Source: Hypomesus transpacificus
Taxonomy: Eukaryota > Chordata > Actinopteri > Osmeriformes > Osmeridae
NCBI RefSeq assembly: GCF_021917145.1
Contig: NC_061065.1
Span: 9,642,351 to 9,706,350 of the forward strand
DNA length: 64,000 nt
Direction of reading: 5' to 3'
Part shown: positions 22,000 through 63,130 of the stretch, piece by piece
Layout of the letters: every line of letters begins with the position of its first letter
How positions within the stretch are numbered: the stretch's first letter is position 1
Translations under genes and position numbers: made by a program
Notes under the pieces: generated by a model
The model's input: the letters and a program-made list of their open reading frames with translations, nothing else
The model's database searches: none
Told to the model about the DNA's origin: nothing

Positions 22000-24073
22000 T
22001 TAGTTCTCCCCGAACTTGATGTCATCGTACATCTGCAGAGAACGAGAGACCAAATTGAAAAAACGTACCGTTAGAAATAATAATGTAATAACATTATGTC
22101 ATAATCCATGTTATCTGGAACATTAACAGTGCAAAATGGACAGGGCGCAAGTCTGTCCAGAGGCAGTGGAGGACAGATTGAGCACATGATGTGTGTGAGG
22201 GTGATGGGGCTGAGCTCACCTCATCATCTGACATGAACTCCTCCTCGCTCTCCTCTGATTCGCTTTCGGGCAGTTCCAGGAGGTCCTGAGCTGTCTTCTC
22301 GAACAGTTGGTGGCGGATCTCCGTGTTCTGTCGGCCGTATGTCAGGTGGTATGGTGCGAAGCCCCCGTATGTCAGACTGTTGACGTCCGCCCCAAGGGCC
22401 AGAAGCCGGTGGACTAGGGAGGGATTCTGGAGGTCCACGGCCAAGTGGAGGGCTGTGCGACCGCTACACTGCTCCTACAAGAAAAAGGAACACAGTCAAG
22501 TTAGATCCACTTGTCTTTTTTCAACTTTTCTCATCTCTCCATTGTTAGAAATGTTTGGTTTTATACCAGAGACTCCCATGGGATGACACCTACCTGTGCG
22601 TTGATGTCTGAGCCCAACTGAACGAGATTCTCCACCAATGACAGGTAGCCGTTTATGGCAGACAGGTGGAGACAGTTGTGTCCTGTAACAGGAGAAGATT
22701 GTAGGTCAGAACACCACAGAATATCAAGATGAGTGAGATACATGGAAGCTAGTTCTAAAAGCTAATAAGCATGGCGTGGGAGGGTTTAAAGATGGCAGAG
22801 CAGGCTCACCACTATAGTTGGGCACGGTGAGGATGGAGGTGAGGTGATGGTGGCAGTTCTGGGTGAGGACGCTGAAGCAGGCAAGGGAACCCTTCTTGCA
22901 GGCAACGTGAAGGGCTGTGTTCCCGCTATTGTCTGCTAGCCTGGGGTCACAGCCGGCCTTCAGCAGCCTCTCCACCAGGTGAGGCTGCTCAGTCACCACA
23001 GCCAGGTGGAGCGCAGTCTGAAGGGAGAAGAAGATGAAGGCCTTTAATGACACATCCTTATCTGATGCATTGTTCATGGCATTAAATGGGGATTAATAGC
23101 TGTTTGTAATGTACTTTTTAGTTTAAAGCAAGTTTTAATGATCATAATTAAAGTAATAAAGAAGGCTTGGAAGTGTATACAATTTCACTTAAGTTAATTT
23201 TGTTTAACACATGGTCATTCTCGTGGGTTTACCTGTCTCTGGTTGTTCTGTACATTCAGGAATGATTCGTTTTGAGACAGCTTGATCATCTGGAACGCAT
23301 ATTCTGTGGCTTCATGAATAATGGCGAGGTGGAGGAACCTGTGAAAAAGTGGGTGGAAAGCTTTGATTAAAAAAAATTGTTTTAAAATACGCGGAGGAAG
23401 TGGCTGAAAAAAAGAACAAAGCTGAGCACTAAAGCGTTGCGCAAGAATGGATTTTTTTTTCTCTGGGTTATTTCCACTAGTTGTGGCTCGACACATAATG
23501 CTTTATCAGTTGCTGGCAGAGCGCCAGGGACTTTCCTGAATGCGCACTGTTGAATGTAGCGCCGCCCATGTTAGATTCTGTGCCAAAACCTTTTCGAGTT
23601 TTTTGCTTGTTTGTTTACTTGCAAACTTATATTAGGGAATGTGTAGCCGAGGCTAATTCTTCCATCTTTACTTGGTATTAATATTATGACATCTAATAGA
23701 AGTGCATTTTAATGCGTATGCACAAGGCGGTCTTAAAACAAGAATCCTTCAATTTTTTGCAAAGACATAGTTATTTATTACTAATAGCATTAGCCTACTT
23801 GAAGTTGCAATATAAAACATGTACTTACGTGTCTCCGTCATCGGTCACTACTTTTTTCCAGGGTTCAGAACCGCACTCCTTTGGCATGGTTTCTATAGCG
23901 ACCACTCTTAAGTCCTCCAACTCTTTCGCAAGGTTATTATATTCCTCCTCTTTTAACGATTCCAACCCGCTATCAAAGCGATCTTCATGGCAAGGTAACA
24001 CTTTACCATGTTTAAGATCCATTTCATCAAAGTAATCCATTTCGCTGTGACTCGACTCTCTATAGACATCCAT
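22000..24073 (-). CDS. nfkbia: NF-kappa-B inhibitor alpha (IkB-alpha), six exons, 311 aa
   Basis: The product holds Rel/NF-kappaB dimers in the cytoplasm until IKK phosphorylation triggers ubiquitination and proteasomal destruction. Exons in transcript order: 24073-23829, 23338-23233, 23017-22810, 22682-22594, 22474-22220 and 22032-22000. All join in frame. Exon 1 carries the phosphodegron [15 protein letters not shown] with serines at 35 and 39, plus upstream lysines at 21 and 24 that are likely ubiquitin acceptors. Exons 2-5 encode the ankyrin repeats ([88 protein letters not shown]). A PEST-like acidic tail, [18 protein letters not shown], follows. The last exon adds only [10 protein letters not shown]. 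Kappa-B sites upstream suggest the known negative feedback. A paralogue is possible elsewhere, so an a/b suffix is not assigned. Confidence 0.96.
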
Positions 24074-24150
24074 AGCAAATATGGCTGATACTGAAGTAGA
24101 CTGTTCTGTGGCTAACTTTGAATAGAGTATGAGTGGATCGAGGGAGGTGC

Positions 24151-24160
24151 CTTTTATTTA
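24151..24160 (-). promoter_or_regulatory. Candidate TATA element of nfkbia
   Basis: On the minus strand taaataaaag lies about 80 bases before the start codon. This spacing would place transcription start near 24120-24125, giving a short leader. Confidence 0.45.
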
Positions 24161-28378: not shown

Positions 28379-31037
28379 ATGCCAGTGCATTCTAGAGAAA
28401 AGAAGGAAAGCAACCATGAGGAAATGGAGGTCGATTACCCTGAGCAAGACGCCAGCAGCACCGACGAAGATGACACAGTCAGTTCGTCTGTGTCTGAAGA
28501 TGGAGATAGCTCTGGTAGGGAAGTTTTGTAAATTGCAACCTGTAAACTTGACAACCTTATTGAACTCCTAATGCATTGCCAAACGTTTACGGTTATTGTT
28601 GTGTGTTCAGAGATGGATGACGAAGATTGCGAAAGGAGGCGAATGGAATGTCTGGATGAGATGACCACCCTGGAGAAACAGTTCACTGACTTGAAAGAGC
28701 AGTAAGATATAACTAAATAGCCAGCAAATGTGCATGATTGTCTTACACTGCAGTATCTGGCTGTCTGGTATGTACATACGTTTTCAAAATATACCTTGTG
28801 TGTGTGTGTCACCCGCGTGGCGTGCATGTATATTTGTGTGTGGGCGTGTATATGTCCAGGCTGTACAAGGAAAGACTGAACCAGGTCGACTTAAAGCTAC
28901 AGGAGGTCATTTCTGGTTGTGCTCAGGAGTATCTGGACCCTCTGGCCAACCTACAAGAAAACATGCAGATCAGGACTAAAGTAGCAGGTCAGTAGACTAT
29001 ATTCAAGAGACTTTAATGACACTAGATGATATGAGGGTGAAATAGATGCCTTACCTGGAGGAATGCCGTTTTCTCTTTAGGAATTTACCGTGAACTGTGT
29101 TTGGAGTCGGTGAAGAACAAGTACGACTGCGAGATCCAGGCTGCCTGCCAGCACTGGGAGGTGAGGGGTCAAACGTGTCAAAGTGCTGATGAATCACCAT
29201 ACAGGAGATGCTGTGCATTGTGAGCATGTGTTGAGAAGGCATTTGTTAAGGCTCAACGGTAGACACGGTTGTCTGTGGGGGGTGTGCATTTTCTCAGTGT
29301 AGTGCTTGGTCAGTAAAAGAGCCCATGTCAGACGATGCTGTTTTTATCAGGTGCGTTTATCCTCCCTGACAACCGTGTGCATCCCGACAACTATCGTCAT
29401 AGCAGCATCAACAGATCAGGAAGAATAATGCATAATAAATTAAAAGAACACGCAGTGTACAAATATCCACCTGATGTCAAAGGTGACAAAGAATGGCGAT
29501 GACCCTCACAGAGCCTTCAGAGATTCCGTACGCCATTGACGGACTGTGATGTTAGCACTTGGAGCGTGACATGTGGATCTGTTACCTGTGTTTCCAGAGT
29601 GAGAAGCTACTTCTGTTTGACACCGTTCAAAGTGAACTGGAGGAGAAGATCCGACGTCTGGAGGAAGATAGACACAGTATTGACATAACCTCAGGTACGG
29701 GATCGATCACGTTGACGCACGTACACAGTCACGCTACAAGTGGGGGATGAACACATGGCAGAAGCACACAGTGTATTATGGATGTCAGAGGTAGTTATGA
29801 GTGGGAGATTTCCACTGCAGTTTTTTCAAGAAAAGCATGTGACTACGTACGCCCAGTCTGATTGGTGCTTTTGTGTTACAGAATTGTGGAATGACGGGTT
29901 GCACTCCAAGAAGAATAAAAAGAAGGATCCTTTCTGTCCTGTCAAGAAGAACAAGCCTGTGGTCGTCTCAGATATCTTTTCATTTCCACACCTTGCGTTT
30001 CCTCTGAAGTTTAAGTTGCTATCCACCCCACTTAGAAACTGTCAGTGTTGATGGTAGTTTCAAGTGTGCACAGTATGCCTTCCTTAACCTCTCTGTACGT
30101 CCATATATTGTTTACATGCTACAAGACCTGGATATACTTGAGGACTGGACCGCCATAAGAAAGGTATTTGTCAGATAACCACGACAATGGTATTTTGTGT
30201 CTGGTTTAGTTGTTGTATTTGACCTCTGACCTTTTGAGCTGGTAGGTGGTTGACCTTTGAGCTGGTAGGTGGTTGACCTTTGAGCTGGTAGGTGGTTGGA
30301 CTTTGACTTCTGAACTGGTTGGTTGTGTGTGTCTCAGGCAATGGCATCACTGGGGCCCCACAGAGTCAAGGTGGATGGTAGGAGACCCTCTGAAATACAT
30401 ACATACATTTTAGTTTCGTCAGCTGCTTAAATAAGTAAATACTTTGAATATGTCCTATCTGGGAGGTGCGTGATCTTTCTTATTGTAGCCCCTGACACTG
30501 TTCTCTCTGTCTCCCTTTCTCTCTTGTCTGCTTCCCCATCTTTCTTTATCTCTGCTCCTTCCCTATTCCTTCTCTTGCCCGTCCTCCCTCCCTCCCCCCG
30601 TCCCTCTCCCACCCTCCCTCTCTGTATCCGTCCAGTGCCCACCAAGCCAGAGCGACCCCACCATGTGGCACGGTCTGAGGATGGGAGGCTGTTCTACGAC
30701 AGCCAGTGGTTCAGCAGAGGACAGGTCATCTGCATCCACAGGAAGGACGGATACCCCACCAGGTGTGTGTGGGAGCAGTTTTAGATATCTTTGTGTGTGT
30801 GTGGGCAGGGTGTGGAAACATATTTTTGTATCTGGGAGAATGTATTTGTTGGTGCATGCTAGTGTGTTCACATAGGTATTTCTGTCTGCAATTTGTCATT
30901 TTCCTCCACTGCTCCTCAGTGCCATCATCACCACGATCAACCAGGAAGAGGTGTGGTTCAAACGGCTGGATGGCACCAAGTCCAAGCTCTACATCTCCCA
31001 GCTGCAGAAAGGCAAATACACCGTGAAGCACTCCTAA
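28379..31037 (+). CDS. brms1l: BRMS1-like protein, ten coding exons, 323 aa
   Basis: A nuclear Sds3-family subunit of SIN3-HDAC co-repressor complexes. Exons: 28379-28514, 28611-28701, 28860-28987, 29081-29160, 29598-29694, 29882-29971, 30099-30163, 30338-30377, 30636-30762 and 30920-31037 (TAA). They total 972 bases and join in frame to 323 residues, the human length. Landmarks are the N-terminal [10 protein letters not shown] and acidic serine-rich stretch, [11 protein letters not shown] and [16 protein letters not shown] (coiled coil), [39 protein letters not shown], and the C-terminal [20 protein letters not shown]. The exon 6-7 junction uses AT-AC rather than GT-AG ends. Replacements relative to human cluster in exon 9. 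Synteny with nfkbia supports brms1l rather than its paralogue brms1. Confidence 0.96.
29972..30098 (+). other. brms1l: U12-type AT-AC intron in brms1l (intron 6, 127 bp)
   Basis: The intron starts atatctttt, one base from the U12 donor consensus atatccttt. It contains ttccttaac at 30080-30088, an exact U12 branch-site consensus, and ends ctctctgtac about 11 bases later. With these ends exon 6 (VVVS) joins exon 7 ([10 protein letters not shown]) through a glycine codon, reproducing the family sequence. I see no GT-AG pair that keeps the frame and the conserved residues. Confidence 0.9.
30236..30315 (+). repeat. 23-bp tandem repeat in brms1l intron 7
   Basis: The unit gagctggtaggtggttgacc then ttt starts at 30236, 30259 and 30282. 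A degenerate further copy runs toward exon 8. Confidence 0.9.
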
Positions 31038-32333: not shown

Positions 32334-32415
32334 TTATTTCATTTTGTATTGGAAGATTCACTTGTGAAAGTACACATGGGAATGAAGGACCTTGATGAGA
32401 CTGCTAGTTCTGGCT

Positions 32416-33015
32416 TTCCCTAACTCCTCCATCTCAAGAGGAGGGGGGCCCTTCATGACCCGCTCTGGCTGTCCCTAACTCCTCCATCTCAAGAGGAGGG
32501 GGGCCCTTCATGACCCGCTCTGGCTGTCCCTAACTCCTCCATCTCAAGAGGAGGGGGGCCCTTCATGACCCGCTCTGGCTGTCCCTAACTCCTCCATCTC
32601 AAGAGGAGGGGGGCCCTTCATGACCCGCTCTGGCTGTCCCTAACTCCTCCATCTCAAGAGGAGGGGGGCCCTTCATGACCCGCTCTGGCTGTCCCTAACT
32701 CCTCCATCTCAAGAGGAGGGGGGCCCTTCATGACCCGCTCTGGCTGTCCCTAACTCCTCCATCTCAAGAGGAGGGGGGCCCTTCATGACCCGCTCTGGCT
32801 GTCCCTAACTCCTCCATCTCAAGAGGAGGGGGGCCCTTCATGACCCGCTCTGGCTGTCCCTAACTCCTCCATCTCAAGAGGAGGGGGGCCCTTCATGACC
32901 CGCTCTGGCTGTCCCTAACTCCTCCATCTCAAGAGGAGGGGGGCCCTTCATGACCCGCTCTGGCTGTCCCTAACTCCTCCATCTCAAGAGGAGGGGGGCC
33001 CTCCATGACCCGCTC
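32416..33015 (+). repeat. 55-bp minisatellite, eleven nearly identical copies
   Basis: The unit begins gtccctaactcctccatctc and contains aagaggaggggggcccttca and tgacccgctctggct. Copies start every 55 bases from 32416 to 32966. Only the first copy (t for g at its start) and the last (ctcc for ttca) deviate noticeably. Each unit can form a small stem through ctcctc and gaggag. It starts about 80 bases after the brms1l polyadenylation signal. Confidence 0.97.
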
Positions 33016-46695: not shown

Positions 46696-55248
<8,553 letters not shown>

Positions 55249-55599: not shown

Positions 55600-58440
55600 G
55601 TTATGTCTGTAGATTGAATGTTGATATGTACAATACATAGAAAACTGTAAGAAGGTTCACTAGTTTCAATTTGAATAAGATGCTAATACATCTATGGCAT
55701 TATTGCCAGGCGGAGGACACACCAGTGAAACCTTCTCGCTCCATTTCTCTAGTGGATCTAATGACAAATTTTGAGCCTATATTTTACAACCCAATTGAGC
55801 CCAAGCCCTATAATAGACCTACATCGAGTTACAGCTTATACAACACACTGAATATATCTTGAGTGTCTGCATTTTGCACATATCAAACCTGACAGCACAG
55901 GCTATAGGAAAAGTAGGCCTCAAGAATCACCACATGCGCGGAACTACTTTTGGCGGATGGATATTTCCAGTGCATGAAAAGGCTGCCTCGTTGACACTGG
56001 AGAATTTGCTATGCTGTTCTGTGACAGCGCGTCTGATTGGTTACAACAGAGCCGCAATATTATACTCCATGTATTGCAGGCAATTATTGGCTACGTCGGA
56101 CCTGCATTGCACCAGGCAGTAGGGCTTCATCAAGATCCCATAAATACAATAAAATTAAATCGAATGTATCTCAGTGCCGATGGTGGTCAGATCAGTTCAA
56201 TTGAAAAATTTAACTCTGAGAAAATGTATCTTAATTTGGAATCGGAGCCTGACAAGTGCAGAAAGGTTGAAAATACCGAGACTTGCCATTGGATGGGGCG
56301 GACACTACTAGAAGTGCTTGCGGAGACGCGGAATTTAAGAATGAAACAGAACTGCGGTAGTGTAAATGGGACAAAAACTCCAGATTATAATTGATTCGTT
56401 TGAGCGGTTTTCTATATCGTGGACATATACCAAAATGTTATTTCTTAATATCATGTTATTACATTTGCTAAAGATAAGACACAATTCAAATGAATAAAGG
56501 AGGTTCGGTTACTTCATTTACATTAGATTGTGTTTGAATGCTACATCCTATATATTTATATTTAGTCATTTAGCAGACGCTCTTATCCAGAGCGACTTAC
56601 AGTAAGTACAGGGACATTCCCCCGAGGCAATTAGGGTGAAGTGCATTGCACAAGGACACAAAGTCATTTTGCATGGCCTGGAATCGAACTGGCAACCTTC
56701 AGATTACTACACTTAACTATAGGCTTTAGGTGAAGTGTCGAGACTTGTCCGGTGAGTTACTTTTACAGAGTAAAGTTGTAGCATATGGTGGAGTGATAGA
56801 CCAAAGCACCACCAAGTGGTCAATGCTGTTTCCATAGAGCCCGTAAGGTGTTTATTCAAATAGCCCGGCATAGGTTATGTACATAGGCTACTAAAGGAAC
56901 TTTTGTCAGGGTAAATTAGGCTATCCCGTGAAAATATACACAAACTTGGCATCAAGTTTCTGTAGGCTCGTTAAAATACTTCTCATAGGCCTACTTTAGT
57001 CCAAGCCGTCATAGGCTACATTCTCATGCACGTGTGTGTCAAACTACTTAGCACTATCCCTTGAATTGATTGGGCAAGTCTCATTAGAATATTACTCCTC
57101 TGTCCATTCACCGACCAATCTCCACCACATGCCTACACGTCACCCTTCAATTAAATTCGTTTTTCACTGTTTGCTGAATGTGCTACGATGTGCGAGCTAG
57201 CCCGCAGCTGCGGTTGAAATGCGTGACTGATTTAATAAAGATGCCGTGGAGAGTTGAGTCAAGTAGAGGCTGCGGCAGCATTCTCACTCAAGCCTAAACG
57301 GGGGTGCTGCATATGGGCCTTTCTGCTGAGTAGGCCTACAAAGTTACACATGGATTCACATCAAGTGGAATTAAATCAATGTTGCTTTTCTCCAAGTGTC
57401 AAACTGCAGCGCTACTGCCTGAGCGGCTTAGCAGGATTAAGCAGCTCGCTATGTTGGAATAGTTCTTCCACAAGAAATCAAATTCTGTTTCACAGCGTTT
57501 TCACACAATTTAAAGTGTGGATGTCGTTTTTGAGCTTTTTCAGCTTTTTGTGCTTTTTGAGCTTGGAGTGTTGGGCTGGGTTCAAATCATATTTGCCCAC
57601 ACGCCTCATCATCCTTAACCCACACTGATAACTTACGTAAAACACAGTACTATATCTTTGTGTTAGGATAATGAAGAAAAACGTATTTTGAAAAACAAAC
57701 TCTGCAGTACCCCCTGCTGGCAGAGTCGTTTTCAGGTCAGCCAAAACTGGCCCGCGATTATTTCATGACATGTTGGTGGTGATGACACGTTTAAATGTCC
57801 ACAGCGCTAAACCCCCAACATTAAAAAGTTCCATGAACCTAGCCTCTGAACTAATTAGGAGTGAAGACCAGGGCCACCTTGAACCAGAATCGAAAGTGCG
57901 AGACGTAAATGACCAGAAAGCCCGGGGTGATGAACAGATGGAGGTGCTGTTGGCACTTGTAATGGGACTATGACAAGATGTGAAATCGTTAAGGTGCAAC
58001 CGCACAACTCTGCGACACGTGCCCAGCGATCTACTCTCCATGAATGTTACAGCCCCACTGCAAAACCTGGGATCCCAGCAGCGAAGTCGATACCTGGGCT
58101 GGGCATGTGAGCCGTGAGAGGTTCGAACCAGCTGGATCTACCGCCGCTCTTACATGAGTAGCCTAATCTAGCGAGGCCTGGGACAGCCAGGCTTGTTGCA
58201 CCAGCATGGAGGACGTAAAGAAGTGAATAATTACACATTTGAGGATTGCGTAAAGATTTTCTTGGTTTTGTCTTCCTTCTCCTGATGAGTAAAACTAAAT
58301 TGTCTTGACCCTGGCTGGGTGAATAGTTTGTGGTTCATTCTTACATGGCTCAAACACTGAGGGATCGAGTGAACCTCACAGGAAGACTGGTCACATGTCC
58401 AATATAAAAAAAAACATGGATACATTTTAACGCATGCTCA
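55600..58440. other. Intergenic between calm and psmc1, same-strand neighbours
   Basis: AT-rich unique sequence with one SINE (56560-56735). A tRNA-like motif lies at about 58080-58140 (minus strand ggttcgaacctctcacgg). Open frames at 56011-56394 and 57254-57628 show no family similarity and no splice-supported extension. Confidence 0.5.
56560..56735 (-). mobile_element. tRNA-derived SINE with fish-type tail, nearly full length
   Basis: On the minus strand the B-box ggttgccagttcgattcc is followed by gcaaaatgactttgtgtcct, a central body, and the tail cgctctggataagagcgtct then gctaaatgact. The head and body match the SINE at 18738, and the tail is the domain shared by many fish SINEs and their partner LINEs. 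Confidence 0.85.

Positions 58441-58600: not shown

Positions 58601-63130
<4,530 letters not shown>

Follow-up and report, generated by a model that had tools for sequence, protein, structure and literature searches.

A predicted U12-type AT-AC intron in the brms1l gene of Hypomesus transpacificus

Intron 6 of brms1l in Hypomesus transpacificus is, with a probability of about 0.96 as judged from its sequence, a U12-type AT-AC intron, and it would be removed by the minor spliceosome. The gene lies on the forward strand of the window (the whole stretch of DNA that was analysed, 64 kb). The features that define the gene and its intron 6 are the following:

28379..31037, + strand: brms1l coding span, 10 coding exons, 323 aa, open from ATG to TAA
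29882..29971, + strand: exon 6, ending ...GTCGTCTCAG
29972..30098, + strand: intron 6, predicted U12-type AT-AC, 127 bp, phase 1
29972..29980, + strand: 5′ splice site ATATCTTTT, 8/9 to RTATCCTTT, with C at +5 and T at +6
30080..30088, + strand: branch site TTCCTTAAC, 9/9 to TTCCTTRAY
30097..30098, + strand: AC 3′ splice site, end of intron 6
30099..30163, + strand: exon 7, starting GTCCATATATTG

The sequence-only reading had proposed the donor ATATCTTTT, the exact branch site TTCCTTAAC, the AC end, the 127-bp length and a spacing of 11 nt, and each of these was recovered where it had been placed.

We take the gene to be brms1l rather than brms1. Its product matches Pfam Sds3 (PF08598) over residues 60–180 of 323, scoring 75.4 bits where the cut-off is 25.4 (E = 8.7e-21), and so carries the profile of the BRMS1/Sds3 family. 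Its PDB matches are the BRMS1 coiled coil (2xus/4auv), the C-terminal domain of SDS3 (7sxi) and, more weakly, SDS3 in 4zqa and 8i03. Scans for relatives confirmed 0 of 36 pattern matches in bacterial/archaeal contigs and 0 of 15 in viral contigs. The spliced translation reads through all 10 exons in frame, for a total of 323 aa and no internal stop, and eight of the nine introns have GT-AG ends, intron 6 being the one with AT-AC. A pseudogene copy or an assembly error, which would make the junction meaningless, is difficult to reconcile with a gene in this state and appears extremely improbable. Two tandem repeats were also observed: a 23-bp minisatellite within intron 7 (30227–30321, 3.4 copies, 94% matches) and a 55-bp repeat just 3′ of the gene (32409–33000, 10.8 copies, 99% matches), which may extend past 33000 because the scan stopped there.

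Elsewhere in the window the following features were found:

22094–22474 and 22724–23092, − strand: ankyrin-repeat exons (Pfam)
23825–24157, − strand: ORF with an IkappaB-alpha-like start, upstream of the ankyrin-repeat exons
47279–47668 and 50244–50624, − strand: EF-hand exons of a calmodulin-like gene (Pfam)
56560–56613, − strand: UnaL2 LINE 3′ element (Rfam RF00436, 64.9 bits)
59698–60066, − strand: AAA ATPase exon (Pfam)

RF00436 was the only Rfam match at the gathering threshold. The ankyrin-repeat gene (22094–24157, − strand) is presumably nfkbia, and NFKBIA and BRMS1L are neighbours within one region of human chromosome 14. The EF-hand gene (47279–50624, − strand) is taken to be calmodulin, and the AAA ATPase exon presumably resembles the proteasome subunit PSMC1.

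The 5′ splice site of intron 6 follows the extended U12-type sequence ATATCCTT(T) at eight of nine positions, its sole mismatch to RTATCCTTT being the T at +6, and the branch site has no mismatch. The distance from the second branch-motif A to the final base of the intron is 11 nt, within the optimum of 11–13 nt given in passages of PMC3584512; as the same passages leave the role of branch point to either A of the motif, the branch-point distance would be 11 or 12 nt. The AC terminus fits the reading frame, and the junction is unable to slide because exon G and intron A differ, as do intron C and exon G. According to the established mechanism, the donor would be read by U11 and then by U6atac, U12 would pair with the branch site and leave an A bulged out as branch point, and the 3′ splice site would be the AC that follows 11 nt after the branch A. 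Of the last 20 nt ahead of the AC, 16 are pyrimidines, including 7 that belong to the branch motif; the corresponding stretches of the other introns contain 17 (introns 8 and 9) or 10–14 (the other six). A distinct polypyrimidine tract is said to be absent from minor introns in passages of PMC3584512, and with 16/20 pyrimidines intron 6 does not clearly show this absence, a point against the U12-type reading.

Intron 6 scores 8/9 against the U12 donor consensus and 9/9 for its best branch-like match, whereas the other eight introns score 2–5/9 and 5–7/9, respectively. In intron 9 a branch-like match of 7/9 stands at the distance seen in intron 6, but the donor there scores 4/9. Duplex energies, which are estimates for assumed snRNA segments, give for the intron 6 donor the weakest U1 pairing of the nine introns (−1.6 kcal/mol; other introns, −4.5 to −10.2) and the strongest U6atac pairing (−4.2 kcal/mol versus −1.5 to +1.5). 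The U12 energies (−7.6 for intron 6; −7.8, −7.1 and −7.5 for introns 3, 8 and 9) and the U11 energies (−2.1 versus −2.5 for intron 3) do not discriminate, and neither was counted as support.

Splicing of intron 6 by the major (U2-type) spliceosome was weighed as an alternative. AT-AC ends alone do not define the class, as passages of PMC2831892 state, and the CENATAC work put the number of AT-AC introns of the major type, or of related subtypes, at 85 (PMC8280824). The U2-type AT-AC introns of sodium channel genes, however, have G at +5 (PMC2831892), where intron 6 has C. The U12 donor and branch site together with the poor U1 pairing also speak against a U2-type intron, which we consider scarcely credible.

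We then asked how often such signals arise in the window. ATATCYTTT occurs twice (1.07 expected) and TTCCTTRAY twice (3.41 expected), and TTCCTTAAC with an AC 8–14 bases on is found once (0.28 expected), a count reached in 21 of 100 shuffles. The single motifs of intron 6 are thus unremarkable in 64 kb; their combination is rare. Both strands were scanned for donors of at least 8/9 whose +2 base is T and whose +5 base is C, followed 50–2000 nt downstream by a branch site and, 8–20 nt past the branch A, by a fitting AC or AG. There were 13 such donors on the + strand and 8 on the − strand, and one 9/9 branch site on each. Within these limits a single pair combined donor, 9/9 branch site and fitting acceptor, namely intron 6. 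When the branch site was relaxed to at least 8/9, 14 pairs were obtained (12 on the + strand, 2 on the −), intron 6 included, and looser pairs therefore do occur by chance. In 50,000 dinucleotide shuffles of intron 6, with the first and last base kept and the AC end not demanded, the donor arose in 45, the branch site in 42 and both in none. The weight of the evidence thus lies on a perfect motif placed exactly at a coding junction rather than on the motif by itself.

Alternative junctions were enumerated for a minimum intron length of 50 bp and for GT-AG, GC-AG, AT-AC, AT-AG or GT-AC ends, taking donors in 29882–30059 and acceptors up to 30163. This gave 136 in-frame, stop-free choices, AT-AC 29972–30098 among them, and that choice alone (1/136) yields the expected 13-residue junction sequence. 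These ends had been claimed in the sequence-only reading to be the only ones preserving the conserved protein. The uniqueness holds among the 136; the yardstick, however, was that reading's own translation, which makes the claim only partly independent, and the match of the junction peptide to conserved vertebrate BRMS1L is presumed. The junction, near residue 208 of 323, is covered by no Pfam match, Sds3 ending at residue 180, and the 50-aa junction peptide alone matched no Pfam family. PDB relatives span residues 4–140 and 207–275 of a 277-residue query and leave the junction, near residue 162 there, outside; a text search with the junction peptide gave no paper carrying it among the matches listed.

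An ordinary GT-AG intron with slightly shifted ends, which would alter the protein a little but keep the frame, accounts for 34 of the 136 choices, such as GT 29965, 29962 or 29959 with AG 30064 or 30073. However, the U1 pairing of these three donors is weak (−2.6 to +0.8 kcal/mol), and the two AGs are preceded by 10/20 pyrimidines (likewise 10/20 in brms1l intron 2). None of the 15 GT donors in 29882–30060 is strong: each has a poorer U1 pairing than seven of the eight GT donors of the gene. Two are slightly above the weakest of the eight, that of intron 2 (−4.5 kcal/mol): GT 29898 (−4.9 kcal/mol), which on this count equals the intron 2 donor, and GT 30054 (−4.8 kcal/mol). Use of the former would remove most of exon 6, and the latter is in 0 of the 136 in-frame choices. 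Every GT-AG option would add or remove residues in the stretch that we presume to be conserved. Such an intron seems very unlikely, if a little less so than the other alternatives. On signal scores, frame enumeration and U1 pairing, the GT-AG and U2-type AT-AC readings of intron 6 were both rejected, and the U12-type AT-AC reading is retained.

Reading into a retained intron 6 meets a stop at codon 234, compared with 323 codons when it is spliced; retention would therefore give a 233-residue product without everything encoded past exon 6. The RNA retaining it would presumably be subject to decay, and brms1l output may be lost when U6atac is limiting, by analogy with what is reported for the human gene. 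A further step, for which we see a rather low likelihood, is that intron 6 could act as a dosage switch of brms1l as in the human gene: with a weak AT-AC donor (T at +6), limiting U6atac might lead to retention, the 233-aa truncation and less Sin3-HDAC co-repressor.

Passages of PMC3728624, whose starting set was the minor introns predicted in U12DB, list BRMS1L as one of the minor-intron genes that are suppressed in HeLa cells and that anisomycin induces, and report that the range of U6atac dependence was not explained by AT-AC versus GT-AG ends. The proposal of a U12-type AT-AC intron in brms1l, which the sequence tests favour over the other readings, fits this: the gene is the same, with a minor intron in human and a predicted one here. 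Orthology of the two introns is probable, and their positional identity is only inferred since these passages give neither intron number nor termini. PMC3728624 was the sole literature match for BRMS1 with U12 and minor spliceosome and for BRMS1L with minor introns, and the only one naming BRMS1L among the matches listed by a broader search. BRMS1L was in none of the matches listed by a further broad search, and no match was found for BRMS1L, U12 and intron retention together. Because human BRMS1L is already named as a minor-intron gene (PMC3728624), intron 6 is not novel; it looks real but ordinary, and no understanding is changed. It is a clean minor-intron example, useful for gene-model checks at the brms1l locus.

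The AT-AC class had also been called rare. This is true among all introns, but among U12-type introns the AT-AC share is 22% in zebrafish, 12% in the pufferfish Tetraodon and Takifugu and 26% in human (Table 2 of PMC7367187). The sequence-only reading further supposed that standard annotation tools might misplace the junction, a weaker claim than that of the intron itself. In zebrafish zrsr2 mutants, according to passages of PMC9501576, GT-AG and AT-AC ends are alike in retained and non-retained U12 introns, and the retained ones are shorter; brms1 is absent from the main text of that paper. Compared with the classic U12-type AT-AC introns described in passages of PMC2831892 (ATATCCTT, TCCTTAAC, AC), intron 6 of brms1l shares the A at +1, the C at +5, the exact branch site, the AC end and the 11-nt spacing, and differs at donor position +6, where the classic introns have C and intron 6 has T.
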